Below, in pieces: positions 2,864-21,069 of a stretch of 64,000 bases of DNA. This DNA is from Azospirillum lipoferum 4B (GTDB lineage: Bacteria > Pseudomonadota > Alphaproteobacteria > Azospirillales > Azospirillaceae). The stretch spans positions 191,001-255,000 of the forward strand of contig NC_016585.1 of NCBI RefSeq assembly GCF_000283655.1. The letters run 5' to 3'. Each line of letters opens with the position of its first letter. Within the stretch, counting starts at the first letter, position 1. A program made the translations under genes and the position numbers. The notes under the pieces were generated by a model. That model was not told the DNA's origin. It did no database searches and was given only the letters and a program-made list of their open reading frames with translations.

Positions 2864-3137
2864 ACAGTTAGACTGCATAGCTTTTGCCAGTTTGCACTGT
2901 GTGCCGCGCCCGCCATTCTTTTCCGGACGCATTTTGCGACGATCCACTCGGATGGAAACAGACCGGCCGTTGCGTTCCGCCCTCCAGGTTGTTTGATTGC
3001 TGACAATATCGGGCGGCATGCCGCTTGCATCGCACCGTCCGGTCCGGGGGGCGACGGACGTGATCGTCCGGCGCTGCCGAGCGCGCCTCCACGCCCGACC
3101 GTTTCCTGCGAGACTTTGGCTGGAGCGTAACCGCGTC

Positions 3138-6134
3138 ATGCGCGTCAATACCCCGATCACCGACCGCGAGGTCCATCTGACCGACGGCGTTCCCCTGGTG
3201 TCGCGCACCGACACCGGCGGGCGGATCACCTTCGTGAACCAGGCTTTCGTCGAGATCAGCGGTTTCGAGGAACATGAGCTGATCGGCGCTCCGCACAACC
3301 TCGTCCGCCATCCGCATATGCCCAAGGAGGCCTTCGCCGATCTGTGGGCGACCGTGAAGTCGGGCCGGCCCTGGGAAGGGCTGGTGAAGAACCGGACCAA
3401 GTCCGGCGATTATTACTGGGTGCGCGCCAACGTCACCCCGGTGATCGAGAACGGTGCCGTCACCGGCTATATCTCCATCCGCTCGAAACCGTCGCGCGAC
3501 GAGGTGGCGGCGGCCGATGCCCTGTATGCCGCCATGCGGGACGGTCGGGCGGCGGTGGCGCTGAGCCATGGCGCGCTCGTCCGCCGCAGCCGCGCGGCCC
3601 GGGCGGCCGCCAAGGCGTGGTCCAGCCTGTCCGGCCGTCTGGCCGGGGCCATGGTGCTGCTGATCCTGGCGATGCTGCTGGCCGGCTGGCTCGGCCTGGA
3701 GGGCATGGAGGCGTCCAACCGGTCGCTTCGCACGGTGTACGAGGACCGGACGGTTCCCGCCTATCAGATCGGCGAAATCCAGAATCTCGCCCGCGACAGC
3801 CGGCAGCGCCTGACCGATCTCGCCGCCGATCTTCAGGCTGGCGATCTTAAGGCAGGCAATCTTCAGGCGGGTAGGGGAACCGGCGACCTCGCCACCATCG
3901 AAGCGGACGTGGCTGCCAACACCGCCGCCATGCAGCAGCTGCTGACCGCCTATCTCGCCACCTACCTGACGCCGGAGGAGGCGGTCCTCGCCGACCGGTT
4001 CAAGCCGCTGGTGGGCTCCTATCTCCAGTCCGGCATCGGCCCGGCCATCGCCCTGGCGCGGGAGAAGAACGGGGCGGCGCTGGACGCCCATCTGCGCGGC
4101 ACCGTCCGTCCCGCCTTCGCCGAACTGCGCCGGGTGTCGGACGCGCTGCTGGAACTGCAGATCCGGGTGGCGCGGGAGGAGTTCGACAAGGCAGAAGCCG
4201 ACCACGGGCTTCGCATCGCCATGGTCGACACGGCGGTTCTGCTGAGCTGCCTGCTGGCCGCCCTGTTCGGCTGGCTGATCCTGCGCACGGTGCGCCGTCC
4301 GCTATCGGTCCTGGAACAGACGTTCGAGCGCATCGCCCGCGGCGCTCTCACCGATCCGATGACACCGATCGCCGTGCCGGAATTCGCCCGCGTGGCGTCC
4401 GAACTGAACGCGATGAAGGCGAAGCTGGCCTATAGCGCCCATGAGAAACACGAGACCGAACTGCGGCAGAAGGCGCTGACCCGCCAGGCTCTGCTGGAGA
4501 CCTGCAAGTCGATCGAAAGCGACCTGGATGCGACCTGGATGGGGGTGGAACTGGCCAGCAACCGGGCCGGCGACGGCATTCAGCATCTGCTGCAGGCCCT
4601 GGGCGTGGTGCGGGAGAACACGATGGTGGTGTCGGCCGCTTCGGAGCAGGCCAGCGCCAACGCCCAGTCGGTCGCCGCCGCGACGGAGGAGCTGAACAGC
4701 GCCGGGCACGAGATCGCGCGGCAGGCGGCCCGCTCCAGCGAGGTGGCCCGGCGGGCGGTGGAAAGCGCCCGCGGTTCCGCCTCCGCCATCGGCCAGATGG
4801 AACTGGCGACGGAGGAGATCGCCAAGGTCGCCAACCTGATCAACGCGATTGCCGGCCAGACCAACCTGCTGGCTCTGAACGCCACCATCGAGGCAGCGAG
4901 GGCAGGGGAGGCCGGCAAGGGCTTCGCCGTCGTCGCCAGCGAGGTGAAGGCGCTCGCCAACCAGACGGCGCGGGCGACCGAAGACATCGCCCGCCAGATC
5001 GACCAGCTGAAGCAGGCGGTCGGCGGCAGCGTCACGGCAATCCAGACCGTCATTTCCGTGATCGAGGAAATCGACGAGGCCGCCGCCGCCACCGCCGCCG
5101 CGGTGGAGGAGCAATCCGCCGCCAACGGGGAGATCGGGCGCAGCGCCACCAACTCGGCCGGCGGTGCCTCGCAGGTGTCGGTCAGCGTCCTCAGCATCCG
5201 CGATCAGGCCGACGGGATCACCGGCATCGCCACCGACGTCACCCGCCGGATGGCCGATACCCAGACCGCGGTCGCCGACCTGAAGCGCCGTCTGGTCATC
5301 GCCCTGCGCCAGTCGGTTGCCGGCGACCGCCGCCTGTCCGACCGCATCCCCTGCGAAGAGCCGGTCACGCTGGTCCTGGCCGGCGACCGCCGCGACACCA
5401 CCATGCTGGATCTGTCGCTGGAGGGAATGCTGGTGGATGCCAAGGGGCTTCCGCCGCTTGCCGAGCAGATGCGGCTGACCGTCTCGCTGCGCGAGGTCGG
5501 CGACCTGCCGGCCGTCGTCGCCGGGATCAGCGACCTCGGGTTGCATCTGGCCTTCGACGAGCGGTCGGACGGTCAGGCGGACCGGCTGGGCCGGGCCTAT
5601 CGCGCGATGGTGGAGGCGGACGCCGAGATCATCCGCACCGCGCAGGACACCGCGGCGGCCCTGTCCAAGGCGTTGGAAGGCGCTCTGTCCAGCGGCGCCA
5701 TCGGGGAGGAGGCGCTGTTCTCCACCGACCTCACTCCCATTCCCGGCAGCGATCCCGAACAGGCGCTGGCCCCCTTCACCGAGCTGACCGACCGCCTGTT
5801 TCCGGCGATCCAGGAACCGGTCCTGGCCTCCAACCCCCGCTTTCAGCTTTGCGTGGCGACCAACAACATCGGCTATGTGCCGACCCACAACAGCCGCTAT
5901 TCCGAGCCGCAACGGCCGGGCGACGTCGTCTGGAACACCGCCCATTGCCGCAACCGGCGCGTCTTCGCCGACCGCTCGGGCCTTGCCGCCGCACGCAACA
6001 CCCGGCCGTTCCTGTTGCAGGCCTATCGCCGCGACATGGGCGGCGGCCAGATGGTGCGCCTGAAGGAGGTCGATGCGCCGATCGTCGTGCGCGGCAGGCA
6101 CTGGGGCAATCTGCGGCTGGCCTATAGGTCCTGA
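3138..6134 (+). CDS. Methyl-accepting chemotaxis protein with PAS, PilZ-like and C-terminal ligand-type domains
   Basis: This 998-residue chemoreceptor has an Aer-type PAS domain at the N-terminus (about residues 10-115; [23 protein letters not shown]). It then has a membrane segment (about 168-188), a ~175-residue helical periplasmic region, a second membrane segment (about 362-386), HAMP, and the MCP signalling hairpin (about 540-700, with [20 protein letters not shown]). About residues 730-830 resemble PilZ ([13 protein letters not shown] ... [10 protein letters not shown]). The last ~120 residues hold [11 protein letters not shown] and [11 protein letters not shown], a conserved domain also known at the C-terminus of some other chemoreceptors. 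The start at 3138 follows a GGAG-like site; the frame is open further upstream without conservation. It is a single-gene unit ending at a strong hairpin. The PilZ assignment is tentative. Confidence 0.85.
3828..3872 (+). repeat. Three in-frame 15-base tandem repeats inside the chemoreceptor gene
   Basis: Three consecutive imperfect 15-base units encode [10 protein letters not shown] and NLQAG in the periplasmic region of the chemoreceptor. The units differ at a few positions, so this is an older in-frame expansion rather than a fresh slippage event. Confidence 0.8.
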
Positions 6135-6140: not shown

Positions 6141-6243
6141 CTACAGCGTCGTGCGTTTAATATGAAACGCACGACGCTGTAGCTTTATGTTTGGCGATCG
6201 GATTCACGCTCCAAATCGATTCCGATTTTACGCGATCCGATCT
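6141..6243. repeat. Dispersed palindromic repeat, copy 1: perfect 18-bp hairpin plus conserved tail
   Basis: A perfect inverted repeat has arms at 6141-6158 and 6165-6182 with a 6-base loop. It is followed by a ~60-base tail containing GATTCACGCT, CGATTCCG and CCGATCT. The same layout occurs in the opposite orientation at 36641-36742. It lies between the convergent chemoreceptor and TetR genes, and its end touches the TetR stop codon, so it may also act as a bidirectional terminator. There is no long T run after the stem. Confidence 0.75.
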
Positions 6244-6811
6244 AAGCGGCCGTCTGCGCCTCCGGCACCAGCACGTCGGCGCAGATCGCCCGCACCACCT
6301 CCGCCCGGTCGGCGGCGGCGCCGGGGGCGAGCAGCCCCTGGCCGAAGGCGAAGGCGTAGAACAGATAGGCGCGGGCGAAGGCCTGATCGGGGGCCAGGCC
6401 CAAGGCCGCGAACAGGCCGGCGACGCTGTGCAGGCGCTCGCGGTCGACCTCGGCAATGACGTTTTCCGCCTCGGGATCGCGGCGCGCCCAGTCGCGCACC
6501 GCCAATTCTATCGCCATGCCGCGCGGCTTGCTGCCGCCATAGAGTGCCAGCAGGTCGCGCAGCTGCTGCGCCGGTTCGCGCCCGTCCAGCCGGGTCTGTT
6601 CCTTGATGGCGGCGATGCGGCCCAGCTTCCAGCTGTCGAGCAGGGCGTTCATCAGCTCGGTGCGGTCGCGGAAATGCCAGTAGAAGCTGCCCTTGGTGAC
6701 CTTCAGGGCCTTCGCCAGCACCTCCACCCGCACCTTGTCGACGCCGCCTTCGGCCAGCGCCGCGAAGGCGGCGGCCAGCCAGGATTCGCGGTTCTTCGTC
6801 TTGGATTCCAT
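6242..6811 (-). CDS. TetR/AcrR family transcriptional regulator
   Basis: The 189-residue protein has an N-terminal TetR helix-turn-helix (about residues 8-55: VDKVRVEVLAKALKVTKGSFYWHFRDRTEL), followed by an all-helical ligand-binding region of normal length. I chose the ATG at 6811 (MESKTKNRES) because the domain starts there; the frame is open up to 6862. It lies 90 bases downstream of the IclR/CoA-ligase-like fusion gene on the same strand and may be co-transcribed with it. Ligand and targets are unknown. Confidence 0.85.
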   Translation of the reverse strand: MESKTKNRESWLAAAFAALAEGGVDKVRVEVLAKALKVTKGSFYWHFRDRTELMNALLDSWKLGRIAAIKEQTRLDGREPAQQLRDLLALYGGSKPRGMAIELAVRDWARRDPEAENVIAEVDRERLHSVAGLFAALGLAPDQAFARAYLFYAFAFGQGLLAPGAAADRAEVVRAICADVLVPEAQTAA

Positions 6812-6901
6812 ACCCGTCCTTCGCGCTCCCCCGGCGTCCGCCGCCGCATTCCGCCGCAGCATTCTGAAGGGCGATCTATACCCGAAAACCGGTGCCGCTG
6901 C

Positions 6902-8641
6902 CTATTCGCCCTGCTGCATCTGGATCGCGTCCGACGCCCGGCCGCGGTAATGGATGTTGCCGTCGCCGTCCAGGAAGGCGCGGTCGCCGGTCAGGTAATA
7001 GCGCCGGCCGTGGCGGAAGCGCTGGGCGGTGCGTTGCGGGTTGTTGGCATAGGATTCGAACCAGAACAGCGGCGAATGGTCGACGTCGATGGCGAGTTCG
7101 CCGGCGCCTCCCGCCGGCGCCTCCCGCCCGTCGGGGTCGAGGATGACGACGCGGAATCCCGGCATCGGCCGGCCGAGCGAGCCGCTGGGCGGCTGGGCGG
7201 CCTCCCCACCGTCGGCCCCCTCGGATTCGTAACGGCCGATTCCGTCGGGATCGTAGCGGTTCACGATGAAGATGCCGGTCTCGCGCTGGCCATACTGGTC
7301 GAGCAAGGGGACCTTCACCGTCCGGTTGGCCCAGGCGATCAGGTCGGGCGGCAGCGGTTCGCCCACCACCGACAGGATACGCAGCGCGAACTGGTGCGAC
7401 ACGCCGGGATCGGCGCCGTGCCAGGCGCGGATCTGCGACGGCGCGGCGGTCAGGTTGGTGACGCCGAACTTGGTCAGCATGCGGTAGCCCTGCCGCACGT
7501 CGTAGGGGCCATCGCAGAAGATCGTCGTCCGCCCCAGCAGCAGCGGCCCGACCAGCCCGTAATAGGCGCCATAGGCCCAGCCGGGATCGGCCATGTTCCA
7601 GTAGATGTCGTCGTCGCGCAGATCGAGGCCGATGCGCATGTACTGCTCGATCCCCGACAGCGCCTTGACCGGCAGCGAGACGCCCAGCGGCGTCGGCTCG
7701 GATTCCGACGTGTAGATCAGGGCGAAGGCATCGCCTTCCCGATAGCGCGCCACCTCGGCCAGAGGGGCGGCCTCGTGCAGCGACGACCAGAAGGGCACCG
7801 CGTCGGGACCGAAGGCCTCGTCGCCCTCCACCGTCACCACCGGCCGGCTGTTGTCGCGCGGCACCTTTCGGCGCAGGAAGCCGTTGGTGACGATGGCCCG
7901 GGCATCGCTGTCGGTCAGCCGGTAGGCGACCGCCGATGCGGTGTAGGTGGTGAACAGCGGCATATAGACGCCGCCCAGCCGCCAGATCGCCAATGCCGTG
8001 ATCAGCAGCTCCGGTCCCTTGGGCAGCAGCACCGCCACCCGGTCGCCCTGGCCCACCCCCATGCCGGCCAGCACCGTCGCGAAGCGCGCCGAATCGTGGG
8101 CGAGGCGGGCGAAGCTCAGCTCCGTCGTCTGTCCCGCCACGCTTTCATGCAGCAGCGCCGCCCGCGCGCCGTCGGCGGTGCGGACATGACGGTCGCACAG
8201 CAGGGCCGCCAGCGCGATGGACTCGCCGCGATACTCCGGCCGCAGGAAGGCCGACGGCCTCACCATCAGGGCCGGCGGCATCTCCGCTGGCGCTGTTGCT
8301 TCCGGCGGCTGGGGCAGGGCAGGGGTGGGGGGAGCCGGCCGGTGCCGCAGCGCCGCCAGATCGCCCAGCGCCACCAGATCCGGCCCCAGGTGATAGCGCT
8401 TGCTGCGCCCGTCCTGCTCCACCAGCCCGTCGCGTGCCAGCGCCATCAGCAGCCGGTGGGCGGTCGCCTTCGACAGCCCGACCGCGGCCATCAGGTCGGC
8501 CAGCCGCGCGCCGTCGGTGCCGGCGTCGGCGACCGCGCGCAGCAGGGCGATGGCCCGTTCCAGGCTTTGGGTGCCGCCCGCCCCGCTCGGGGCCGCGGGA
8601 GGTGTGGCGATGTCGGCGTGACTGCTCATGAGGTCCATCAT
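6902..8641 (-). CDS. Fusion of IclR-type helix-turn-helix domain with a degenerate acyl-CoA synthetase domain (putative ligand-sensing regulator)
   Basis: Residues ~23-100 are an IclR winged helix (TQSLERAIALLRAVAD ... LSKATAHRLLMALARDGLVEQ). A Pro-rich linker (101-126) leads, in one frame, to an AMP-binding fold (127-579) with GDRVAVLLPKGPE, DPGWAYGAYYGL, DQYGQRETG and YYLTGD. The adenylate P-loop, normally TSGTTGxPKG, reads TSESEPTPLG (311-320), so the Gly, Thr and Lys are lost. The protein stops at GRASDAIQMQQGE, just where the C-terminal subdomain with the catalytic Lys should begin, and no remnant of it is seen in the 90 bases downstream. The usual IclR effector domain is absent. It diverges from a transporter operon carrying two real CoA ligases. 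I infer a transcription factor that senses an acyl-CoA, acyl-adenylate or free acid. ATGs at 8641, 8638 and 8629 are all possible; the first two lie inside a palindrome. Confidence 0.8.
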   Translation of the reverse strand: MMDLMSSHADIATPPAAPSGAGGTQSLERAIALLRAVADAGTDGARLADLMAAVGLSKATAHRLLMALARDGLVEQDGRSKRYHLGPDLVALGDLAALRHRPAPPTPALPQPPEATAPAEMPPALMVRPSAFLRPEYRGESIALAALLCDRHVRTADGARAALLHESVAGQTTELSFARLAHDSARFATVLAGMGVGQGDRVAVLLPKGPELLITALAIWRLGGVYMPLFTTYTASAVAYRLTDSDARAIVTNGFLRRKVPRDNSRPVVTVEGDEAFGPDAVPFWSSLHEAAPLAEVARYREGDAFALIYTSESEPTPLGVSLPVKALSGIEQYMRIGLDLRDDDIYWNMADPGWAYGAYYGLVGPLLLGRTTIFCDGPYDVRQGYRMLTKFGVTNLTAAPSQIRAWHGADPGVSHQFALRILSVVGEPLPPDLIAWANRTVKVPLLDQYGQRETGIFIVNRYDPDGIGRYESEGADGGEAAQPPSGSLGRPMPGFRVVILDPDGREAPAGGAGELAIDVDHSPLFWFESYANNPQRTAQRFRHGRRYYLTGDRAFLDGDGNIHYRGRASDAIQMQQGE

Positions 8642-8648
8642 ATGGACC
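8632..8648. promoter_or_regulatory. 17-bp palindromic operator candidate 1
   Basis: The sequence GGTCCATCATATGGACC is a perfect 6-bp inverted repeat (GGTCCA/TGGACC) around 5 bases. It overlaps the start-codon region of the IclR-CoA ligase fusion gene. A near-identical copy lies 116 bases away at 8748-8764. Palindromes of this size are usual IclR-family binding sites, so this is probably the autoregulatory site. Confidence 0.65.
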
Positions 8649-8697
8649 AAGCGGCGGCTTGTCGCGTCAAAAAACATGCAATGGCGGAATGTCAGTG

Positions 8698-8725
8698 TTG
8701 AAAACAGACAAGAACCCGGTATATA
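8698..8725 (+). promoter_or_regulatory. Sigma-70-like promoter of the transporter operon
   Basis: TTGAAA (8698-8703) and TATATA (8720-8725) are separated by 16 bases, about 105 bases upstream of the first ABC gene. The region is AT-rich compared with its surroundings. The second palindrome lies just downstream, where a bound repressor would block transcription. Confidence 0.55.
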
Positions 8726-8747
8726 GTGCGGAAGTTGCTCATGAAAC

Positions 8748-8764
8748 GGTCCACAATATGGACC
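8748..8764. promoter_or_regulatory. 17-bp palindromic operator candidate 2
   Basis: The sequence GGTCCACAATATGGACC matches the palindrome at 8632-8648 in 15 of 17 bases, with both 6-bp arms identical. It lies about 23 bases after the -10 box of the rightward promoter and 65 bases before the first ABC gene. It is the predicted site through which the fusion regulator controls the transporter operon. Confidence 0.65.
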
Positions 8765-8829
8765 TCGCCGGCCACCGAAGAGCCGGGTCGTGACCCCGAG
8801 AAGCGGTACCAACAGCAACGGAGGAGGAA

Positions 8830-9726
8830 ATGTCAGGCGCGCCCGTCGCACCACACCCCGGCCCTGGCCAAAATTCCCCTGGCCAAAAGTCGCCCACCAC
8901 CCAGGCGGAGACCATCTTCGAGGCTCGGGGCGTCAATCTGCGCTTCGGGGGCGTCCATGCGCTGACCGACGTCAGTTTCGGCATCCGTAAGGGCGAGTTG
9001 TTCTCGATCATCGGCCCGAACGGGGCCGGCAAGACCTCGATGGTCAACTGCATCTCCGGCCGTTACCGGCCGACCGATGGCAAGGTCTATTTCAAGGGCC
9101 GCGACGTGACGGGGATGACCCCGAACCATCGCGCCTCGCTCGGCATCGGCCGCACCTTCCAGAATCTGGCGCTGTTCGGGCACATGACCGTGCTCGACAA
9201 CATCATGGTCGGCCGCCACCACCTGCTGAAGAACAACTTCCTGACCGGGCCGCTCTATTGGCTGACCGGCGCCAGGAAGGAGGAGCTGGCCCACCGCCGC
9301 GAGGTGGAGGAGATCATCGACTTCCTCGAAATCCAGCATGTGCGCAAGGCCACCGCCGGCACGCTGTCCTACGGCCTGCGCAAGCGAGTGGAACTGGCCC
9401 GCGCCATCGCGCTGAAGCCCGACCTGATCCTGCTGGACGAGCCGATGGCCGGCATGAACCTGGAAGAGAAGGAGGACATGGCCCGCTACATCGTCGACCT
9501 GAACGAGGAATTCGGCATGACCGTGGTCATGATCGAGCACGACATGGGCGTGGTCATGGACATCTCGCACCGGGTGATGGTGCTGGAATTCGGCAAGAAG
9601 ATCGCCGAAGGCAGGCCGGAGGAGGTCCTGGCCGATCCCCGCGTCCGCCGCGCCTATCTGGGCGAGGACGACGAGGAGGAGGAGCCCGTCGCCGCCGTTC
9701 CGCCGGCCCGGAAGGAGGTCGCGTGA
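8830..9726 (+). CDS. livG: Branched-chain amino acid-type ABC transporter, ATP-binding protein (LivG-like)
   Basis: This 298-residue ATPase drives a Liv/HAAT-type importer. Walker A is GPNGAGKT (about residues 61-68), the signature is LSYGLRKR, Walker B is LILLDEP, and the H-loop is in MIEHD. An extra Pro/Gln-rich stretch of ~28 residues precedes the fold. The start has a strong GGAGGA site. It is the first gene of a seven-gene operon. The stop overlaps the next start by one base (TGATG). The CoA ligases in the operon suggest that the substrate is a carboxylic or aromatic acid rather than an amino acid, which is inference. Confidence 0.9.
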   Translation: MSGAPVAPHPGPGQNSPGQKSPTTQAETIFEARGVNLRFGGVHALTDVSFGIRKGELFSIIGPNGAGKTSMVNCISGRYRPTDGKVYFKGRDVTGMTPNHRASLGIGRTFQNLALFGHMTVLDNIMVGRHHLLKNNFLTGPLYWLTGARKEELAHRREVEEIIDFLEIQHVRKATAGTLSYGLRKRVELARAIALKPDLILLDEPMAGMNLEEKEDMARYIVDLNEEFGMTVVMIEHDMGVVMDISHRVMVLEFGKKIAEGRPEEVLADPRVRRAYLGEDDEEEEPVAAVPPARKEVA

Positions 9727-11672
9727 TGGCCGCGCTTTCTCATCTTCCCGATCTGGCCGTCTACGACACCCTGCCGAAGCTGGTGGCATTGCACGCCCGC
9801 GACCATGGCGGCGAAATCGCCATGCGCGAGAAAGATTTCGGCATCTGGCGGACCTTCACCTGGGACCAGGTGCAGGCCCGTGTCCGTGCCTTCGCGCTCG
9901 GGCTGACCAAGCTCGGCGTCGTGCCGGGCGAGGTGGTCGGGCTTCTCGGCGACAACCGCCCCGACTGGGTGATGGGCGAGGTCGCGACCCACGCCGTGCG
10001 CGGCTACAGCCTGGGCATCTACCGCGACGCGCTGGACGAGGAGGTCGCCTACCTCATCACCTATGCCGACGTGAAGGTGGTGTTCGCTGAGGACGAGGAG
10101 CAGGTCGACAAGCTGCTGAACCTCGCCGACCGGCTGCCGACGCTGCAGCACATCATCTATTCCGACCCGCGCGGCATGCGCAAATACCATGACCTCCGCC
10201 TGATGCCGGTCACCGACCTGATCCGCATGGGCGAGGAGCTGCTGGCCGCGCAGCCCGACCTCTACGACCGCATGGTGGCGGAGACCAAGGGCGAGGATGT
10301 CGCCATCCTCTGCACCACGTCGGGCACCACCTCGAACCCGAAGATGGCGATGCTGCCGGCGGGGCGCCTGATCCGCCATGTCGCCAGCTACCTGTCCGCC
10401 GATCCCAAGGGGCCGGAGGACGAGTATGTCTCGGTCCTGCCGCTGTCCTGGATCATGGAACAGGTCTATGCCGTCGGCATGGGCATCGTGTCGCGGATGC
10501 GCGTGAACTTCGTCGAGGAAGCCGAGACGATGATGCACGACTTCCGCGAGATCGGGCCGACCTTCGTCCTGTTCGCCCCCCGCCTGTGGGAGGCCATCGC
10601 CGCCGACGTGCGCGCCCGGATGATGGATGCCTCGCCCTTCAAGCAGAAGATGTACGAACTCGGCATGAGGCTGGGGCTGGAGGCGCTGGCGAAGGGGCAG
10701 CGCTCGGCGATGGCCGACGCCATCCTGTTCAAGGCTCTGCGCGACCGGCTGGGCTTCACCAACCTGAAATCGGCGGCGACCGGCGGCGCGGCGCTCGGTC
10801 CCGACACCTTCAAGTTCTTCCAGGCGCTCGGCGTGCCGCTGCGCCAGATCTACGGCCAGACCGAGACGATGGGCGCCTACACCGTCCATCGCGGCAACGA
10901 CGTGGATTTCGACACGGTCGGCGTGCCCTTCGACGACGGCATCGAGGTGAAGGTGATCGACGCCGACCACAACGGCGTCGGCGAGATCGTCACCCGCCAC
11001 CCCAACATGTTCGCCGGCTATTACCGGAACGAGAAGGCGACCGTCGCCGACATGCGCGACGGCTGGATGCACACCGGCGATGCCGGTTTCTTCGACAAGA
11101 AGGGGCATCTGGTCATCATCGACCGCATCAAGGACATCGCCACCACCGCACACGGCGACCGCTTCAGCCCTCAATACATCGAGAACAAGCTGAAGTTCAG
11201 CCCCTATGTGGCCGAGGCGGTGATCCTGGGCGACAAGCGCGAGTATCTGTCGGCGATCATCTGCATCCGCTTCTCCATCGTGTCGAAATGGGCGGAAAAG
11301 AACCGCATCGCCTTCACCACCTACTCCGACCTGTCGTCCAAGCAGGAGGTCTACGACCTGCTGCGGGCGGAGGTGGAGCGGGTGAACCAGACGCTTCCGG
11401 AGTACCAGCGCATCTCCAAGTTCCTGCTGCTCTACAAGGAGCTGGACGCCGACGACGGCGAGCTGACCCGCACCCGCAAGGTGCGCCGCGGCGTCGTCGC
11501 CGAGAAATACGGCACCATCATCGACAGCATCTATGCCGGCCAGCCGAAGATCGACGTCGACACGACCATCGCCTTCCAGGACGGCACCAAGCAACGCATC
11601 CGCACCACGCTGACCGTCATCGATCTGGCTCCGGCCGCCGCGGCGAAGAAGCCGCAGCCGGTGGCGGCGTGA
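9726..11672 (+). CDS. Long-chain/aromatic acyl-CoA ligase (AMP-dependent synthetase)
   Basis: This 648-residue enzyme belongs to the FadD15/FAA1-like branch of the AMP-binding family and should activate an acid to its CoA thioester using ATP. The P-loop is TTSGTTSNPK, and the later motifs IYGQTETMGAYT, HTGDAGFFDKKGHL and DRIKDIATTAHGDRFSP are present. The C-terminal region (LTRTRKVRRGVVAEKY) is complete, so the enzyme looks active, unlike the truncated ligase-like domain of the divergent regulator. It is coupled to the upstream ATPase gene and sits between ABC transporter genes. Its substrate is probably the one carried by that transporter. Confidence 0.88.
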   Translation: MAALSHLPDLAVYDTLPKLVALHARDHGGEIAMREKDFGIWRTFTWDQVQARVRAFALGLTKLGVVPGEVVGLLGDNRPDWVMGEVATHAVRGYSLGIYRDALDEEVAYLITYADVKVVFAEDEEQVDKLLNLADRLPTLQHIIYSDPRGMRKYHDLRLMPVTDLIRMGEELLAAQPDLYDRMVAETKGEDVAILCTTSGTTSNPKMAMLPAGRLIRHVASYLSADPKGPEDEYVSVLPLSWIMEQVYAVGMGIVSRMRVNFVEEAETMMHDFREIGPTFVLFAPRLWEAIAADVRARMMDASPFKQKMYELGMRLGLEALAKGQRSAMADAILFKALRDRLGFTNLKSAATGGAALGPDTFKFFQALGVPLRQIYGQTETMGAYTVHRGNDVDFDTVGVPFDDGIEVKVIDADHNGVGEIVTRHPNMFAGYYRNEKATVADMRDGWMHTGDAGFFDKKGHLVIIDRIKDIATTAHGDRFSPQYIENKLKFSPYVAEAVILGDKREYLSAIICIRFSIVSKWAEKNRIAFTTYSDLSSKQEVYDLLRAEVERVNQTLPEYQRISKFLLLYKELDADDGELTRTRKVRRGVVAEKYGTIIDSIYAGQPKIDVDTTIAFQDGTKQRIRTTLTVIDLAPAAAAKKPQPVAA

Positions 11673-11701
11673 GGAGAGCGCGATGCGAACCGCAAACATC
11701 A

Positions 11702-11840
11702 CCCTCTCCCGCCCCGGGAGAGGGAGGGGACCCGTGCGGAGCATGGGGAGGGTGAGGGGGCCGGCAAGAAGCGGGCGCCCTGATCCTTGCAGCACCCTCA
11801 CCCGGCCCTTCGGGCCACCCTCTCCCGGGGCGGGAGAGGG
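11702..11840. repeat. Dispersed CCCTCTCCC/GGGAGAGGG palindromic repeat, copy A
   Basis: The gap between the CoA ligase and LivH genes is filled by a complex inverted repeat. Outer arms CCCTCTCCCG and CGGGAGAGGG enclose a second pair (GGGAGGGTGAGGGGG and CACCCTCACCC). Related elements occur at 16122, 17571, 26374 and 32906. It sits inside the operon, so it will be transcribed and can form a long stem. Confidence 0.75.
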
Positions 11841-11858
11841 ACAGAAAGAGGCCACGCC

Positions 11859-12746
11859 ATGACCCTTCTGTTTCAGCTTCTCGTCAACGGCCTGATCGTC
11901 GGCGCGCTGTATGGCGTGGTCGCCATGTCCTTCGTGCTGATCTACAAGGCCAGCCGCATCGTCAACTTCGCCCAGGGCGAATTCCTGCTGATCGGCGCCT
12001 GGACCTGCTGGTGGTTGCTGACCAGCTGGCAGCTGCCCTTCTGGATCGGCTTCCCGATCACGCTGGTCTTCATGCTGGCCTTCGGCGTCATCCTGCAGAT
12101 CGTCGTGCTCAGGCCGATGATCGGCGAACCGATCATCTCCGTCATCATGGTGACCATCGGCCTGTCCATCGTCTTCCAGGCGGCGATGAAGTGGATGTTC
12201 GGCGTCTTCGCCAAGCCCTTCCCGCCGATCTTCGCCAGCCCCACCATGAACCTGTTCGGGCTGGAGGTGCAGACCGTCTACGTGATGTCGCTGCTGATCT
12301 CGATCCTGATCATGGCGGGCTTCGGCTGGTTCTTCAAATACTCGCGGACCGGCCTCGCCATGCGGGCCACCGCCTTCGACCAGCAGGTGGCGCAGTCGCT
12401 GGGCATCTCGGTCCGCCACATGTTCGCGATGAGCTGGGCGATCTCCGCCATGGTGTCGGCGGTGGCCGGCGTCACGGTGGGCGTGGTCAACGGCGTGTCG
12501 TCGGCCTTGTCCTTCTTCGGCATCAAGGTGTTCCCGGCGGTGATCCTGGGCGGTCTCGACAGCGTCATCGGCGCGGTGGTCGGCGGCCTGATCGTCGGCG
12601 TGCTGGAGAACATGGCGCACTACCTGGACAGCCAGTGGCTGAACTGGGGCAACATGTACGAGATCGCGCCCTTCTACGTCCTGATCGCCATCCTGATGAT
12701 CAAGCCCTACGGCCTGTTCGGCACCAAAGACATCGAGCGCGTGTGA
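11859..12746 (+). CDS. livH: Branched-chain-type ABC transporter permease (LivH-like)
   Basis: This 295-residue inner-membrane permease has about eight hydrophobic segments. It carries the family motifs near the start (GALYGVVAMSFVLIYKASRIVNFAQGEF) and the conserved cytoplasmic loop with GLAMRATAFDQQVAQSLGI. I chose the ATG at 11859 because the frame upstream of it reads through the palindromic repeat. LivM follows seven bases after the stop. Together with LivM it forms the translocation channel. Confidence 0.9.
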   Translation: MTLLFQLLVNGLIVGALYGVVAMSFVLIYKASRIVNFAQGEFLLIGAWTCWWLLTSWQLPFWIGFPITLVFMLAFGVILQIVVLRPMIGEPIISVIMVTIGLSIVFQAAMKWMFGVFAKPFPPIFASPTMNLFGLEVQTVYVMSLLISILIMAGFGWFFKYSRTGLAMRATAFDQQVAQSLGISVRHMFAMSWAISAMVSAVAGVTVGVVNGVSSALSFFGIKVFPAVILGGLDSVIGAVVGGLIVGVLENMAHYLDSQWLNWGNMYEIAPFYVLIAILMIKPYGLFGTKDIERV

Positions 12747-12753: not shown

Positions 12754-13827
12754 ATGGCGAACATCAGCATCATCCCGAGCGGCGATTTCAAGACGTCCTA
12801 CGGGACCGACACCACCATCTTCCCGACCAAGACCAGCCGCAACTTCGCGATCCTGGGCGTGGTTCTGCTCCTGGCCTGCCCGGCCTTCATGGATCGCTAC
12901 TGGCTCAGCCTGCTGATCCAGATCGGCTATCTCGGCATCGCCGCGCTCGGCCTGAACATCCTGGTCGGCTTCACCGGCCAGATCTCCATCGGCCATTCCG
13001 CCTTCTTCGGCTTCGGCGCCTTCGCGTCGGCCTGGCTGAACAACAGCCTGGGCGTTCCGGTGGCGCTGGCCATCCCGCTGGCGGGCGTGGTCACCACCCT
13101 GGTCGGGCTGCTGTTCGGCATGCCGGCGGCGCGGCTGAAGGGCCTGTATCTCGCCATCGCCACGCTGGCGGCGCAGTATATCCTGCAGGACTTCTTCGCC
13201 CGGGCCGACTGGTTCACCGGCGGCACCGCCGGCACCATCGCCGAGCCGCTGACCATCTTCGGCTTCGCCTTCGACACCGACGAGCGGTACTTCTACGTTG
13301 CCCTGGTGGCGCTGGTGGTGATGTATATCCTCGCCACCAACCTGATGCGGACCCGCGACGGCCGCGCCCTGGTGGCCGTGCGCGACCATTATCTCTCCGC
13401 CGAGATCATGGGCATCAACCTGACGAAGTACCGGACGATGTCCTTCGGCATCTCCGCCTTCTACGCCGGCATCGGCGGCGCCCTCTACGCCCATTACCTG
13501 CAGTTCGTGTCGGTGGAGGGCTTCACCATCCTCTTCTCGATCCAGTTCCTGGGCATGATCATCATCGGCGGGCTGGGCTCTATCATGGGCACGCTGATGG
13601 GCACCGCCTTCATGGTCTTCCTGCCGGAGGCGATGCAGGCGCTCACCAAGCTGGTCAGCGGCACCGCCATCGATACCGCGCTGAACCTGAAGGACAACAT
13701 CGCCTTCCTGCGCGAGATGTCGATCGGCCTCGTCATCATCTTGTTCCTGGTGTTCGAGCCCGACGGGCTGGCCCACCGCTGGAAGCAGATCAAGGCCTAC
13801 TGGAAGCTCTATCCCTTCTCGCACTGA
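12754..13827 (+). CDS. livM: Branched-chain-type ABC transporter permease (LivM-like)
   Basis: This 357-residue permease is the partner of LivH. It has a short cytoplasmic N-terminus (~25 residues), then about nine to ten membrane segments. The LivM motifs GLNILVGFTGQISIGHSAFFGFGA and FLGMIIIGGLGSIMGTLMGTAF are present, together with the loop RTRDGRALVAVRDHYLSAEIMGIN. It lies seven bases after livH and 53 bases before the binding-protein gene. Confidence 0.9.
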   Translation: MANISIIPSGDFKTSYGTDTTIFPTKTSRNFAILGVVLLLACPAFMDRYWLSLLIQIGYLGIAALGLNILVGFTGQISIGHSAFFGFGAFASAWLNNSLGVPVALAIPLAGVVTTLVGLLFGMPAARLKGLYLAIATLAAQYILQDFFARADWFTGGTAGTIAEPLTIFGFAFDTDERYFYVALVALVVMYILATNLMRTRDGRALVAVRDHYLSAEIMGINLTKYRTMSFGISAFYAGIGGALYAHYLQFVSVEGFTILFSIQFLGMIIIGGLGSIMGTLMGTAFMVFLPEAMQALTKLVSGTAIDTALNLKDNIAFLREMSIGLVIILFLVFEPDGLAHRWKQIKAYWKLYPFSH

Positions 13828-13880
13828 GTTTCGACGCTTTGCCGGTCAACAAACAGAACAGAATGGGGAGTCAACGCACC

Positions 13881-15173
13881 ATGTCGATCAAGACCGCGCT
13901 TTTCGCCACTTCGGCCCTCCTGCTGGCGACCACCGCCACGGGCGTCACCTCCGCTTGGGCCGACATCCCGGTCGGCCATCTGGCGGACCAGTCCGGCGCC
14001 ACCTCCGACGTCGGCGTGCCCTATGCGCAGGGCGTGGCGGATGCGCTCGCCTACATCAACTCCAAGGGCGGCATCAACGGCACCAAGCTGGCCGTCGACA
14101 CCGTCGACTACGGCTATCAGGCGCCGCGCGCCATCAGCCAGTACAAGAAATGGTCCTCGGGCAGCGACAAGATCGCAGCCCTGCAGGGCTGGGGCACCGC
14201 CGACACCGAGGCGCTGACCGGCTTCGTCGGCAAGGACGAGATCCCGGCCTACTCCGGCTCCTACTCCGGCCACCTGACCGACCCGACCGGCAAGGGCCCG
14301 CACGGCTCCAAGCCGGCGCCCTACAACTTCTTCTACGGTCCCTCCTATTCCGACGCGCTGCGCGGCATGCTGATGTGGGCGGCTGAGGACTGGAAGAAGC
14401 AGGGCGGCCAGGGCAAGCCGAAATACGTCCATATGGGCGCCAACCACCCCTATCCCAACGCGCCGAAGGAAGCCGGCGAGCAGCTGGCCAAGGAGCTGGG
14501 CTTCGAGGTGCTGCCGGCCGTGCAGTTCGCCCTGACCCCCGGCGACTACACCGCCCAGTGCCTGACGCTGAAGCAGTCCGGCGTCAACTACGCCTATCTC
14601 GGCAACACCGCCGGCTCCAACATCTCGGTGCTGAAGGCCTGCCAGACGGTCGGCGCCAAGGTGCAGTTCATGGGCAATGTCTGGGGCATGGACGAGAACG
14701 CCGCCAAGGCCGCCGGCGCCGCCGCCGACGGCGTGGTGTTCCCGATGCGCACCGCGGTCACCTGGAACGGCGACGCGCCGGGCATGAAGACGCTGAAGGA
14801 CATTTCCAAGATGTCCGACGCGGCCGGCACCGCCTATCGTCCGGTGCACTACATGGCCGGCGTCTGCACCGCCTTCATCATGAAGGAGGCGATGGACTGG
14901 GCGTCGAAGAACGGCGGCGTCGCCGGTCCGAACATCCGCAAGGCGATGTATCAGAAGAAGGACTGGGTCCCGGCCGGGCTGGAGGGGGTCTGCGTTCCCT
15001 CGACCTGGACCGAGAACGACCACCGCGGCATGACGGCGGTCAACATCTACCGCGCCAAGGTCGGCGGCGACACCGGCGCCGGCGTGGACGAGCTGGTCAA
15101 GGCCGGCACGATCAAGCTGGAGAAGCTGACCACCGTCGACGTCCCGCGCAAGCCGGAATGGCTGGGCTGGTAA
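13881..15173 (+). CDS. livK: Branched-chain-type ABC transporter, periplasmic substrate-binding protein (LivK-like)
   Basis: This 430-residue protein captures the substrate in the periplasm. A Sec signal peptide (about residues 1-27, ending SAWA) is followed by the receptor-family fold of Liv/HAAT binding proteins (type I periplasmic-binding protein). At ~430 residues it is longer than LivK proper (~370), as is typical of the family members associated with acyl-CoA ligase operons. I chose the ATG at 13881 because the signal peptide begins there and GGGGAG lies upstream. A stem-loop follows the stop, which could give this gene a higher transcript level than the genes after it. Confidence 0.88.
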   Translation: MSIKTALFATSALLLATTATGVTSAWADIPVGHLADQSGATSDVGVPYAQGVADALAYINSKGGINGTKLAVDTVDYGYQAPRAISQYKKWSSGSDKIAALQGWGTADTEALTGFVGKDEIPAYSGSYSGHLTDPTGKGPHGSKPAPYNFFYGPSYSDALRGMLMWAAEDWKKQGGQGKPKYVHMGANHPYPNAPKEAGEQLAKELGFEVLPAVQFALTPGDYTAQCLTLKQSGVNYAYLGNTAGSNISVLKACQTVGAKVQFMGNVWGMDENAAKAAGAAADGVVFPMRTAVTWNGDAPGMKTLKDISKMSDAAGTAYRPVHYMAGVCTAFIMKEAMDWASKNGGVAGPNIRKAMYQKKDWVPAGLEGVCVPSTWTENDHRGMTAVNIYRAKVGGDTGAGVDELVKAGTIKLEKLTTVDVPRKPEWLGW

Positions 15174-15263: not shown

Positions 15264-16118
<855 letters not shown>

Positions 16119-16121: not shown

Positions 16122-16273
16122 CTTTGCCCCCTCCCTAACCCTCCCCCGCTCTCGGCCGGCCGAAGGCCGGTCCGATCGCGGGAGAGGGGACTGCCGCCAT
16201 TTCCTTGCAACACTCCCGCAAGCGTCCTGCCCCCTCTCCCGCGGAGCGGGGGAGGGATGGGGAGGGGGCAAAG
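16122..16273. repeat. Dispersed palindromic repeat, copy B
   Basis: Thirty-base arms at 16122-16151 and 16244-16273 are inverted copies with two mismatches. They start CTTTGCCCCCTCCC and end GGGAGGGGGCAAAG. An inner CTCTCGG/GGGAGAG pair nests between them. The element fills most of the livF-ligase gap. It belongs to the same family as the elements at 11702, 17571, 26374 and 32906. Confidence 0.8.
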
Positions 16274-16328
16274 AGGATGGCAGAGCAATGCGCGTCACCT
16301 CGGCCGACCCCTGAACGGACGAACGACC

Positions 16329-17558
16329 ATGACCGACTTCTACGACGACCTCGAAACCCGTTCCTCCGACCGGCGCGAGGCCGAGCAGTTCGCGGCGCTG
16401 CCCGCCCATCTGCACCACGCCAAGGACAACGCCCCCTATTTCCGCCGGCTGCTGGCGGAGATCGACCCGGCGGCGATCCATGACCGCGCGTCGCTCGCCA
16501 CCCTGCCGGTGACGCGCAAGGCCGACCTGATCGCGCTGCAGCAGGAGAATCCGCCCTTCGGCGGTCTGGCGGCGGTGGAGATCGGGCGGTTGGCCCGCGT
16601 CTTCGCCTCGCCCGGCCCGATCCACGATCCGGAGCCGCATGGCGTCGATCCCTGGCGCAGCGCCCGTGCGCTGTTCGCCGCCGGTTTCCGCGCCGGCGAC
16701 CTCGCCCACAACTGCTTCGCCTATCACCTGACCCCGGCCGGCTCGATGTTCGAGACGGGCGCGCACGCCGTCGGCTGCGCCGTCATCCCGGCCGGCACCG
16801 GCAACAGCGAAATGCAGGCGCAGGTCGTCGCCAGCCTGAAGCCGCGCGGCTATATCGGCACGCCCGACTTCCTGAAGATCATCCTGGAGAAGGGCGACGC
16901 GCTGGGGCTCGACGTCTCCTCCATCCGCATCGCCGCCGTGTCGGGCGGCCCCTATCTGCCCGACGCCCGCGCCTTCTACGAGGCGCGCGGGCTGGAGGTC
17001 TACCAGAGCTACGGCACCGCCGACCTCGGCATCGTCGCCTACGAGACCACCGCAAGGTCGGGTCTGGTGGTGAACGAGGGCTGCATCGTCGAGATCGTCC
17101 GCCCCGGCACCGGCGACCCGGTTCCCGACGGCGAGGTGGGAGAGGTGGTGGTGACCATCTTCAACCCGGCCTATCCGCTGATCCGCTTCGCCACCGGCGA
17201 CCTGTCGGCGGTTCTGCCGGGAACCAGCCCCTGCGGCCGGACCAACATGCGGCTGAAGGGCTGGATGGGACGCGCCGACCAGACCACCAAGGTCAAGGGC
17301 ATGTTCGTCCACCCCGGTCAGGTCGCCGAGGTGCTGCGCCGCCATCCCCAGATCTCCCGCGGTCGCCTCGTCGTCGGTCGCCAGGACGCCAGCGACACCA
17401 TGACGCTGCGCTGCGAAGCGGAGGAGAGCGGAGACGATCTCGCCGCCGCCATCCGCGAGACGCTGGCGGCGGTGACCAAGCTGAATGGGAAGGTGGAGTT
17501 CGTGGCGCCGGGGAGTTTGCCGAATGACGGCAAGGTGATCGACGACACGCGGGGGTGA
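16329..17558 (+). CDS. Phenylacetate-CoA ligase-like adenylating enzyme (PaaK family)
   Basis: This 409-residue enzyme belongs to the PaaK branch of the AMP-binding superfamily. Features include the early region HHAKDNAPYFRRLLAEID, the YGTADLG motif in place of YGxTE, RFATGDLSAVL, and a C-terminal region with GRADQTTKVKGMFVHPGQV that carries the hinge and substrate-closing strand. Such enzymes activate phenylacetate or related aryl acids to CoA esters in the cytosol. It is the last gene of the ABC operon. Two CoA ligases in one uptake operon suggest a hydrophobic or aromatic acid substrate. I chose the ATG at 16329 because the upstream frame lies in repeat sequence. Confidence 0.85.
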   Translation: MTDFYDDLETRSSDRREAEQFAALPAHLHHAKDNAPYFRRLLAEIDPAAIHDRASLATLPVTRKADLIALQQENPPFGGLAAVEIGRLARVFASPGPIHDPEPHGVDPWRSARALFAAGFRAGDLAHNCFAYHLTPAGSMFETGAHAVGCAVIPAGTGNSEMQAQVVASLKPRGYIGTPDFLKIILEKGDALGLDVSSIRIAAVSGGPYLPDARAFYEARGLEVYQSYGTADLGIVAYETTARSGLVVNEGCIVEIVRPGTGDPVPDGEVGEVVVTIFNPAYPLIRFATGDLSAVLPGTSPCGRTNMRLKGWMGRADQTTKVKGMFVHPGQVAEVLRRHPQISRGRLVVGRQDASDTMTLRCEAEESGDDLAAAIRETLAAVTKLNGKVEFVAPGSLPNDGKVIDDTRG

Positions 17559-18326: not shown

Positions 18327-18666
18327 GATGCTCTTTCTCCCTGGTTTGCGGACCCGGATGGTCCCCCCGGATGATCCTGCGGACGTTCGATCTCCGGCTT
18401 TGCCGGGAGGATGGCCTCAACCGGGCCGGTGACGCCAGAGGAAAGCGCTGCTCCAATAGTCATGGCACGGCTGCAACAAGCCTCGCACACCATCGGTGTG
18501 ACTGCCCCTCTCCGAAGCTGTGGGCGGCTTGACCGGCGAAACCAAAAGCCGTAGACAATGAGTTATATGCGAAATGCCGCATGGATATGCCGTATGTGGT
18601 CCTGTGCGCCGGCCGGCGCCGCATGGCCGGCCGCACGGGGCGCGGAACCAAGGTCCGGATGGCAAG
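18327..18666. other. Intergenic region between divergent GST and response-regulator genes
   Basis: This 340-base stretch has no convincing gene. It must hold the promoters of both flanking genes. The only visible structure is a small dyad, ATGCG-6 bases-CGCAT, at 18567-18582, within a locally AT-richer stretch. No confident -35/-10 pair was identified. Confidence 0.5.
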
Positions 18667-19056
18667 ATGGTGGACACGGTCGACAAGACGCGGACGATCC
18701 TGGTGGTCGAAGACAATGTGCTGATGCGCAAGCTCTTCGTCCGCTGCCTGGAGGAAGGCGGTTTCGCCGTGGTCGAGGCGTCCGACGCCACGTCGGTTCT
18801 GTCGCTGATGCGCGAGACGGCGCCGGATCTGGTGGTGATGGACATCGTCATGCCCGGCCTGTCGGGGCTTGAGCTGATTAAGCAGATCCGTGCCGATGGC
18901 GACCTCGCCGCGACGACGGTGCTGGCCGTCACCAACCTCGCCACCCCCGCCGACAAGCGCCGGCTGGCCGATGCGGGATTCGACGGCCATGTCTCCAAGC
19001 CGATCAAGCCCAAGGAGTTCCAGGCCACCGTCGCCGGTTTCCTGACTGCCGCATGA
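18667..19056 (+). CDS. Single-domain response regulator (CheY/DivK-like)
   Basis: This 129-residue protein is a receiver domain only. It has the acidic pair in VVEDN, the phosphoacceptor D59 in VVMDIVMPG, a conserved Thr in LAVTNLA, and the Lys in HVSKPIKP. It should relay a phosphoryl group by protein-protein contact and has no DNA-binding or enzymatic domain. I chose the ATG at 18667 because the fold begins right after it. It lies 116 bases upstream of the Pel operon on the same strand. That position makes a link to exopolysaccharide control possible but unproven. Confidence 0.85.
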   Translation: MVDTVDKTRTILVVEDNVLMRKLFVRCLEEGGFAVVEASDATSVLSLMRETAPDLVVMDIVMPGLSGLELIKQIRADGDLAATTVLAVTNLATPADKRRLADAGFDGHVSKPIKPKEFQATVAGFLTAA

Positions 19057-19172
19057 CCGCTGTCCAGGCAGGGATCACCCGTCTTCCGTGATGTCCGCTA
19101 TGGCGTGAGATCCGCCAAGCCGGCGCCTGCGGAAGAACCACCACACACGCAAGAGCGGAGGGAGCTGCAGCG

Positions 19173-20114
19173 ATGGCGCGTTATCTGGTTACCGGCGGCT
19201 GCGGCTTCATCGGCTCGCACCTGATCGAGCGGCTGCTGTCCGCCGGACACGAGGTGCGGGTTCTGGACGACCTGTCCACCGGCAAGCGCGAGAACCTGCC
19301 CGCTTCCGTGCCGGTGACGGTCGGCGACGTCGCCGACGCGGCGGCGGTGGAAGCGGCGATGGCCGGCTCCGACGGTGACGGCGTGGACGGCTGTTTCCAT
19401 CTGGCCGCCGTCGCCTCCGTCGACCGCTCGCGCGAGGCGTGGCTGGAAACCCACCATGCCAACCTGTCCGGCACCATCGCCGTGTTCGACGCCGCCCGCC
19501 GCGCCAATGCGAAGGGGCCGGTGCCGGTGGTCTATGCCTCCTCCGCCGCCGTCTATGGCGACAATCCGGCCATGCCGCTATCCGAGGATGCGGCGACCCG
19601 CCCGCTGTCCGCCTATGGCGCCGACAAGCTGGGCTGCGAGCTGCATGCGCGGGTGGCTGACATCGTGCATGGCGTGCCGACCACCGGTTTCCGCTTCTTC
19701 AATGTCTATGGCCCGCGCCAGGACCCGAAATCGCCCTATTCCGGCGTGATCTCGATCTTCGCCGGCCGGATCGCCCGGGGGGAGCCGATCACCATCAATG
19801 GGGACGGCCAGCAGGTGCGGGATTTCATCTTCGTAAAGGACTTGGTGCGATATCTGACGGCTGCGATGGACACTCCAAGGTCCGGCGCACCGGTCTTCAA
19901 TGTCTGCACCGGCCGTCCGACCACGGTGAACCGGCTGGCGGAGGTGCTGGGGGAGCTATCGGGCCGTCCGCTCGACCGCCGGTATGGACCGGCGCGGCCG
20001 GGCGACATCCGGGTGTCCATCGGCGATCCGTCGCGCCTTATCGCCGCCTTCGGCATGAGCTGCGACACGGCGCTGGAGGACGGGCTGCGCGAGACGCTGG
20101 CGTGGCTCGGTTGA
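19173..20114 (+). CDS. pelX: NAD-dependent UDP-sugar 4-epimerase (PelX-like)
   Basis: This 313-residue extended SDR has the NAD-binding TGGCGFIGSH at the N-terminus, DVAD and HLAAVASV strand motifs, and the catalytic pair in SAYGADKLG (YxxxK). It resembles WbpP/GalE-type epimerases. In Pseudomonas protegens the UDP-GlcNAc 4-epimerase PelX sits beside the pel genes and supplies UDP-GalNAc, the precursor of Pel. The same position directly upstream of pel genes supports that role here. A strong GGAGGGAG site precedes the start. The pelX name rests on context; a housekeeping GalE role is the alternative. Confidence 0.78.
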   Translation: MARYLVTGGCGFIGSHLIERLLSAGHEVRVLDDLSTGKRENLPASVPVTVGDVADAAAVEAAMAGSDGDGVDGCFHLAAVASVDRSREAWLETHHANLSGTIAVFDAARRANAKGPVPVVYASSAAVYGDNPAMPLSEDAATRPLSAYGADKLGCELHARVADIVHGVPTTGFRFFNVYGPRQDPKSPYSGVISIFAGRIARGEPITINGDGQQVRDFIFVKDLVRYLTAAMDTPRSGAPVFNVCTGRPTTVNRLAEVLGELSGRPLDRRYGPARPGDIRVSIGDPSRLIAAFGMSCDTALEDGLRETLAWLG

Positions 20115-20127
20115 CCGCTCGGGTCGG

Positions 20128-21069
20128 ATGAGCGTCGAGAGGGGTTGGGGTGGCGTGATCGGTGGTCTGATCGGGCGGCGCGCAGTCGCCGCGGGGCTGG
20201 TGTCGGGTGCGGCGTCGCTGGCGTTGCCCAACCGCCCGCTGCGGGCCGCCGGGACCGGCCAGGCTTCGGCTTTTCCATCCTCCGCCACTCGATCCCCCAA
20301 TTCTCCCTGGGCGGTCTATTACGCCGATGCGGCTCCGTTGTCGGCCTTCCAGCCCTACCGGCTGCTGGTCCTGGACAGCCGCACCCATCCGCCGCTCCAG
20401 CCGCTGGCCGACCGCGGCAAGACCCTGTTCGGCTATCTCAGCGTGGGGGAGGTGGAGACTCACCGGCCATGGTTCGGCCGGGTGAAGGGCTGGGGCATCC
20501 TGGACCAGGAGAACCCCAACTGGCCCGGCAGCTTCTATGTCGATGTCCGCGACCGCCGCTGGGTCAAGCTGGTGGTGGAGGAACTGGTGCCGGCCATCCT
20601 GCGCGAAGGCTTCCACGGCGTCTTCCTCGACACGCTCGACAACCCGCCGCATCTGGAGCGCACCGAGCCCAAGCGCTGGCGCGGCATGACCGACGCCGCG
20701 GCGGCGCTGGTGCGGGCCATCCGCCGCAACTGGCCGGACATCGGCCTGACGCAGAACCGCGCCTATGAGATCCTGCCGCAGACGGCCCCGCTGCTGACCC
20801 ATGTGCTGGGCGAGAGCGTCTATGCCGGCTGGGATTTCGCCGCCAGGCGCCCGCACCGCCAGAGTGCGGAGGATTACCGGTTCCAGGTGGAGGCGCTGAA
20901 GGCCGCCGGCGCATCGAACCCGCGTCTCGGCCTACTGACGCTCGATTACTGGGATCCAGCCGACACGGCGGGCGTGCGGGCCATCTACGATCTGCAGCGG
21001 GCCAACGGCTTTTCCCCCTATGTCTCCACGGTCGAACTGGACCGCCTGATCCCGGAGCCGGCCCGGTGA
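20128..21069 (+). CDS. pelA: Pel glycoside hydrolase (GH114-like, N-terminal half of PelA as a separate protein)
   Basis: This 313-residue secreted protein matches the hydrolase domain of PelA. After a signal-like segment with GRRAVAAGLVSGAAS it has WAVYYADAAP, LFGYLSVGEVE, YVDVRDRRW, GVFLDTLDN and LGESVYAGWDF, which follow the TIM-barrel pattern of endo-alpha-1,4-polygalactosaminidases. In Pseudomonas this domain trims Pel in the periplasm and is fused to the deacetylase. Here a stop codon ends the protein and the deacetylase begins in a GTGA overlap (21066-21069), so the two are made as separate coupled proteins. The symbol is shared with the next gene. Confidence 0.82.
   Translation: MSVERGWGGVIGGLIGRRAVAAGLVSGAASLALPNRPLRAAGTGQASAFPSSATRSPNSPWAVYYADAAPLSAFQPYRLLVLDSRTHPPLQPLADRGKTLFGYLSVGEVETHRPWFGRVKGWGILDQENPNWPGSFYVDVRDRRWVKLVVEELVPAILREGFHGVFLDTLDNPPHLERTEPKRWRGMTDAAAALVRAIRRNWPDIGLTQNRAYEILPQTAPLLTHVLGESVYAGWDFAARRPHRQSAEDYRFQVEALKAAGASNPRLGLLTLDYWDPADTAGVRAIYDLQRANGFSPYVSTVELDRLIPEPAR

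Follow-up and report, generated by a model that had tools for sequence, protein, structure and literature searches.

What becomes of an acyl-CoA synthetase (ACS) that has lost its catalytic residues and carries a DNA-binding domain at its N-terminus? The question is raised by a gene on a 64,000-nucleotide stretch of Azospirillum lipoferum 4B (NC_016585.1, positions 191,001 to 255,000), hereafter the window, whose positions are used throughout. The gene (6902..8641, minus strand) encodes 579 amino acids counted from M1, in which an IclR-type winged helix is followed by the N-terminal domain of an inactive ACS. We consider that the fusion protein is probably a one-component repressor that acts locally, controls its own gene and responds, via its pseudo-ACS domain, to a ligand of the carboxylic-acid type. 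In a group of soil bacteria, it seems that an enzyme for the activation of carboxylic acids has given up catalysis, acquired a DNA-binding domain and come to control the adjacent uptake-and-activation operon, a natural case of an enzyme turned gene regulator.

The minus-strand frame from 6902 to 8641 is uninterrupted by stop codons. The Met5 codon (8629) is an alternative start, at which the A. ramasamyi orthologue begins in RefSeq, and residues 1-4 may not be translated. A helix-turn-helix (HTH) occupies residues 26-78 (8408..8566, minus strand; Pfam HTH_IclR, PF09339, 48.3 bits, cut-off 22); residues 31-90 reach a pLDDT of 92-94 per ten-residue block in the predicted model, and the HTH is 44% identical to that of an ordinary IclR regulator (L176) from G001, the nearest genome in the comparison set, with 24% of sampled words in common. 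A variable linker of low pLDDT (residues 101-128; 8258..8341, minus strand) leads to the ACS N-terminal domain (residues 129-575; 6917..8257, minus strand), which has an AMP-binding fold according to its Pfam AMP-binding match at residues 165-518 (189.8 bits, cut-off 29.9). The remaining Pfam matches are weak, lie over the HTH and stay under their cut-offs. Neither the IclR effector domain IclR_C (PF01614) nor the ACS C-terminal domain (PF13193) appears in the Pfam listing of the fusion at E-values up to 1, a range in which HMMER filters discard most matches above about 0.1. Positive controls in the same run recovered PF01614 in L176 (65.7 bits) and in L178 (69.6 bits), and PF13193 in an unfused ACS. 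A preliminary description, made from the nucleotide sequence, had proposed one frame in which an AMP-binding fold replaces the IclR effector domain and the C-terminal subdomain is missing, and both proposals agree with these matches.

The ACS domain is predicted to retain its fold. By sequence and by predicted structure, the closest fold is that of the Brucella acyl-CoA synthetase 5u2a, and not that of the benzoate-CoA ligases initially suggested for comparison, which rank slightly below it in the structure-match list; these lists (Foldseek, VIA), made with the HTH folded together with the rest of the protein, are dominated by the ACS domain. The best-matching plasmid records come from A. ramasamyi (93.5% protein identity), other Azospirillum and A. 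brasilense (about 74%); in A. brasilense Sp7, the orthologue is locus AMK58_RS23190 (WP_035679353.1). Annotated Azospirillum plasmid records name the gene merely 'AMP-binding protein'.

A match to the fusion at an E-value of 1e-60 was found in 43 of 82 genomes of the family, namely 42 of the 45 Azospirillum genomes and the single genome of genus g26 (Arenibaculum, as judged by its contig), and in none of the 36 further genomes of the family outside these two genera. Loop and end were read in 34 loci, where P-loop loss and truncation accompany the fusion, as they do in Arenibaculum. The fusion is conserved, and neither a local deletion nor a lack of orthologues, the outcomes against which the preliminary description had staked its proposal, was found. 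The C-terminus lies 8 residues past hinge position 571 in 32 of the 34 orthologues, 9 in one and 12 in one (35 loci were available, of which L035, an N-terminal contig piece, was left out). A local frameshift as the cause of the missing C-terminal domain was ruled out, as 32 of 34 orthologues stop at the identical place. The Arenibaculum fusion extends 26 residues beyond position 577 and still has no C-terminal domain. In genome G027, contig ends interrupt the gene within the linker, and the copy at G067:C477:13635-15386, from a draft assembly with some 1140 contigs, has a single internal TAA, which may be a sequencing error or a recent loss.

The ligase motifs quoted in the preliminary description are present, as is the altered P-loop. 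Instead of [ST]SGTTGxPKG, the rebuilt P-loop reads TSESEPTPLG (residues 311-320; 7682..7711, minus strand), with T311, E313, P318, L319 and G320 invariant in all 22 fusions of alignment A3, whereas 18 of 18 unfused relatives have Gly at 313 and Lys at 319. Within the A5 motif DQYGQRETG (residues 448-456; 7274..7300, minus strand), the Thr of the enzymes is replaced by Arg453 in 20 of these 22 fusions and by Ser or Leu in the other two. The hinge motif GRASD (6929..6943, minus strand) has Ser570 for the hinge Asp in 22 of 22, and the gene ends directly after it, the window protein terminating 8 residues past Asp571. Judged by these motifs, the fusion is not a functional ACS. The adenosine-site motifs GEPL and YLTGD and the A5 Glu are retained, and 11 of the 13 positions of the acyl/adenosine pocket, mapped via AcsA contacts and residue numbers, are invariant. 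The preliminary description had envisaged a regulator sensing acyl-CoA or acid. A CoA thioester appears less probable as ligand: in known ACS structures, the CoA tunnel is formed with the help of the C-terminal domain, which is gone here, while the acyl/adenosine pocket is kept; the regulatory part of that proposal fares better, given the paired palindromes between the divergent genes.

The window contains two 17-bp palindromes flanking both divergent promoters; 100 shuffles yielded none. Putative operator O2, GGTCCATCATATGGACC (8632..8648), covers the predicted -10 element of the regulator promoter, and putative operator O1, GGTCCACAATATGGACC (8748..8764), lies just past the predicted start of livG transcription. 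Both palindromes occur, with at most 3 mismatches in the 12 core bases, in every one of the 29 named fusion loci compared (the 30 named loci minus L052, where a contig breaks within the gene). The pair is exact in 22 of the 29 and has at most one mismatch in each palindrome in 27, the weakest being those of L064 (2 and 1 mismatches) and L067 (3 and 2). Their spacing of 115-118 bp corresponds to about 11 helical turns. Among 1975 random 320-bp stretches of the window, 528 reached a best match of 3 mismatches and 48 one of 2, the commonest value being 4. The palindromes were found in 0 of 10 loci that have the livG operon and no regulator (L130-L139; three from Azospirillum and seven from three other genera), where the best match has 4-5 mismatches. 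At the level of sequence, this conservation is the best functional evidence that the divergent operon has a regulator, and DNA binding by the fusion protein is strongly implied. Palindromic sites in divergent promoter regions are common to the IclR family, as expected for autoregulation. A pattern search of 45 genomes for a wider regulon returned, among the matches listed beyond the locus, nothing but dispersed sites in which the centre carries one or more G/C.

The predicted livG promoter, TTGAAA-18-TATAGT (8698..8727, plus strand), lies between the palindromes; its -35 element is well conserved in orthologous loci and its -10 element partly so. The predicted regulator promoter, GCGACA-17-TATGAT (8637..8665, minus strand), is a consensus match only, with its -10 element within O2. 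Transcription of the regulator would start near the Met5 codon, giving a nearly leaderless message.

Repression is suggested by the positions of these predicted promoters relative to O1 and O2. The IclR-type winged helix would occupy the two operators as a pair of dimers or a single tetramer. About 11 turns apart, the operators would enclose both divergent promoters, and the bound protein would keep these shut when no ligand is present. The substrate of the operon, most likely a carboxylic acid, possibly together with AMP or as an acyl-adenylate, would fill the pseudo-ACS pocket; the resulting conformational change would release the operators, and the transporter and ligases would be made. The same IclR-type HTH and the same palindromes on either side of both promoters would also suit an activator, whose ligand-bound form on O1 and O2 recruits RNA polymerase at the operon, and many IclR-family members of aromatic-acid pathways are activators. 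We consider activation unlikely, though the strongest of the alternatives, as sites beyond a start, like O1 at livG, or across a -10 element, like O2 at the regulator gene, are typical of repressors, although the starts are themselves predicted.

The repressor would control an operon that encodes a branched-chain-amino-acid-type ABC transporter and two AMP-binding ligases, in the divergent arrangement that the preliminary description had claimed. All its genes are on the plus strand: a LivG-like ABC ATPase, the first gene (8830..9726), a long-chain-type acyl-CoA ligase with its C-terminal domain (9735..11672), LivH-like (11787..12746) and LivM-like (12754..13827) permeases, a periplasmic substrate-binding protein (Peripla_BP_6; 13839..15173), a LivF-like ABC ATPase (15264..16118) and a PaaK-like ligase of the phenylacetate-CoA ligase type (16257..17558). 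In A. brasilense, the operon continues with genes for an aldehyde dehydrogenase, an isovaleryl-CoA dehydrogenase and an acetyl-CoA C-acyltransferase. Three Azospirillum genomes that have no regulator retain the binding protein of the operon and, within the stretches fetched, livG to livM. In two of them (G002 and G011), the operon adjoins a candidate acyl-CoA dehydrogenase gene, and in G011 also a candidate 3-hydroxyisobutyrate dehydrogenase gene (both read by eye, not by family search); the neighbours differ in the third (G024). The substrate was not inferred from the binding protein, whose best solved relatives are of the branched-chain-amino-acid type or unspecified. The operon neighbours fit some carboxylic-acid substrate, branched or aromatic, as does the esterase gene beside a second, more distant fusion.

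This fusion (L141), the single additional one in a class sample of 385 alphaproteobacterial genomes, is encoded in G356, a genome of another alphaproteobacterial family, and is 47% identical to the window protein. No other fusion was found in its family (39 genomes) or order (43 genomes), and a second class sample (388 genomes) yielded only G356 and Azospirillum copies; among the matches listed in 398 genomes of the phylum, only that of G001 extends to the HTH start. These samples overlap, and fusions past the E-value limits would escape them. An HTH-only test covered 41 loci, L141 and 40 unfused ones, and placed an HTH beside an ACS domain in L141 alone. L142 and L143, also retrieved, proved to be unfused, and the HTH match in L162 (12 residues, E-value 0.86) is situated elsewhere than the ACS domain and was attributed to chance.

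The P-loop of L141 reads LAGTTNSPRG and its A5 Thr is replaced by Ala. The protein retains the C-terminal domain (PF13193, 43.6 bits), yet its PKTPSGK motif has become PWALQRV, with loss of the catalytic Lys. Two near-operators, the first with a single core mismatch and the second with 2, are spaced 138 bp apart, about 13 turns, and the second overlaps the probable start codon, like its Azospirillum counterpart. The gene divergent from the L141 fusion encodes a tannase/feruloyl esterase (410.6 bits), which possibly hints at an aromatic acid ligand, and NMT1-type ABC transporter genes lie downstream. The two divergent genes occupy 8221-9936 (minus strand) and 10112-12178 (plus strand) of that locus. 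In the ACS-domain tree (44 rows), L141 groups with the 13 Azospirillaceae fusions in a single clade (100/100 support), on a long branch that brings the usual caveat on its exact position; L141 is known from one genome, with no close copy found in its family, its order or the second class sample. The simplest reading of these sequences is that L141 represents an evolutionary intermediate: the sensor would have descended from an active synthetase by a single HTH fusion, followed by the loss of catalytic residues and later, in the Azospirillum line, by that of the C-terminal domain.

Dead enzyme domains often act by binding active relatives, and both ligases are co-encoded with the regulator, so the pseudo-ACS domain of a DNA-binding regulator could instead sense a protein partner, an operon ligase or the transporter ATPase, and no small molecule. 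We find this improbable, since a mere docking surface would not need the retained acyl/adenosine pocket and no relative of the two window-operon ligases was found beside L141.

Still less credible is a remaining enzymatic role, in which the fusion would be an N-domain-only synthetase producing acyl-adenylates and its HTH would localize it or regulate as a side job, as in BirA. The retained GEPL, YLTGD and A5 Glu would agree with this, and so would selection on the frame: median dN/dS is 0.27 for the HTH (228 pairs), 0.88 for the linker (118) and 0.22 for the ACS domain (226), from the usable pairs of 22 sequences, and therefore both domains are selected as proteins and the linker is nearly free. 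The ACS domain, judged from these ratios, is under purifying selection. However, the P-loop Gly and Lys, the A5 Thr and the hinge Asp are all substituted in 22 of 22 A3 fusions, and the C-terminal domain with the catalytic Lys is absent from 34 of 34 readable orthologues. Finally, a decaying pseudogene, an accidental in-frame junction or a frame artefact, which the lost motifs and the interrupted G067 copy might suggest, was dismissed for the Azospirillum family as extremely improbable on the presence of the gene in nearly all genomes of the genus, the dN/dS of both domains, the common end point and the co-conserved palindromes.

Several observations weigh against a ligand-sensing repressor. 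Its promoters are consensus matches only; the palindrome pair of L067, taken alone, barely exceeds chance, and single sites with the same outer core and a G/C centre occur elsewhere in many genomes. At L141, the site with 1 mismatch is the best in 19.9 kb, and the site with 2 mismatches is one of five there. The partner genes of the Azospirillum and L141 fusions differ, so a single common ligand is not assured. The pocket positions are largely invariant in unfused enzymes too, and their conservation thus speaks for retention only. Position 453 is Ser or Leu in the two most distant Azospirillum copies, and one orthologue (G067) has an internal stop codon. Lastly, 3 of the 45 genomes of the genus and seven genomes of three other genera have the operon without the regulator, which is therefore dispensable for having the transporter.

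Compared with known systems, the fusion shares the HTH_IclR domain with IclR-family regulators and has an ACS domain in place of IclR_C (PF01614); by its domain content, it is not a full member of that family, since IclR_C is absent. With AMP-forming ACS (5u2a; L068 and L069) it shares the fold and the acyl/adenosine pocket at 36-46% identity, but it has an HTH and is without the intact P-loop, A5 Thr, hinge Asp and C-terminal domain. BirA, the precedent originally invoked, joins an HTH to a biotin ligase, which is adenylate-forming, and has an acyl-adenylate as effector; it is an active enzyme, and its fold and HTH differ from those of the fusion. A closer precedent is BzdR of Azoarcus sp. 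CIB, in which an XRE HTH and a linker precede a shikimate-kinase-like former enzyme domain without catalysis (PMC3602430). BzdR controls a benzoate catabolic operon in response to benzoyl-CoA, and its authors argue that fusion came first and loss of activity afterwards (PMC3602430). Its inactive enzyme domain is the effector sensor and keeps the Walker A motif (PMC3602430), whereas in the window fusion, with an IclR HTH, an ACS domain, a rebuilt P-loop and no C-terminal domain, sensing is a proposal. As the Pfam domains differ and the XRE HTH and shikimate-kinase fold are not present, the fusion is, by sequence, no relative of BzdR and resembles it in principle only. FadD1 of Pseudomonas aeruginosa, the cis-2-decenoic-acid receptor, is an ACS for which binding to promoters and to a fatty-acid signal has been reported; it has both AMP-binding domains, is described as an enzyme too, and its DNA binding is ascribed to a leucine-zipper-like stretch in the AMP-binding domain, with no HTH (PMC12754631). 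No description of an IclR-ACS regulator was found in the literature searched, which comprised open-licence papers, in agreement with the preliminary description.

We tentatively raise the further possibility, itself doubtful, of a new class of one-component regulators that read the acyl-adenylate, or the free acid with AMP, an intermediate of the very enzymes controlled, with L141 and Azospirillum as two stages of descent. An origin of regulators from enzymes is widely held, yet several stages are rarely seen in living genomes; here, one tree holds unfused intact synthetases, a fusion that has lost the catalytic Lys and fusions from which the catalytic subdomain is missing, and operator-like sites are conserved across the fusion clade. 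The regulator offers a concrete way to find the substrate of an orphan transporter-ligase operon that the plant-associated genus Azospirillum retains, and a potential scaffold for acid biosensors.

Elsewhere in the window, a TetR-family regulator gene (6242-6862, minus strand) lies downstream of the fusion gene and is adjacent to it in A. ramasamyi too, but not in A. brasilense Sp7. It is preceded by a gene (2997-6134, plus strand) for a methyl-accepting chemotaxis protein with PAS, four-helix-bundle sensor, HAMP and PilZ domains. Beyond the operon, a cluster at 18417-26346 encodes a sugar epimerase, a GH114-type glycoside hydrolase, a 764-amino-acid protein with no Pfam match and a TPR protein, and resembles an exopolysaccharide (Pel-like) locus, a label that is a guess.
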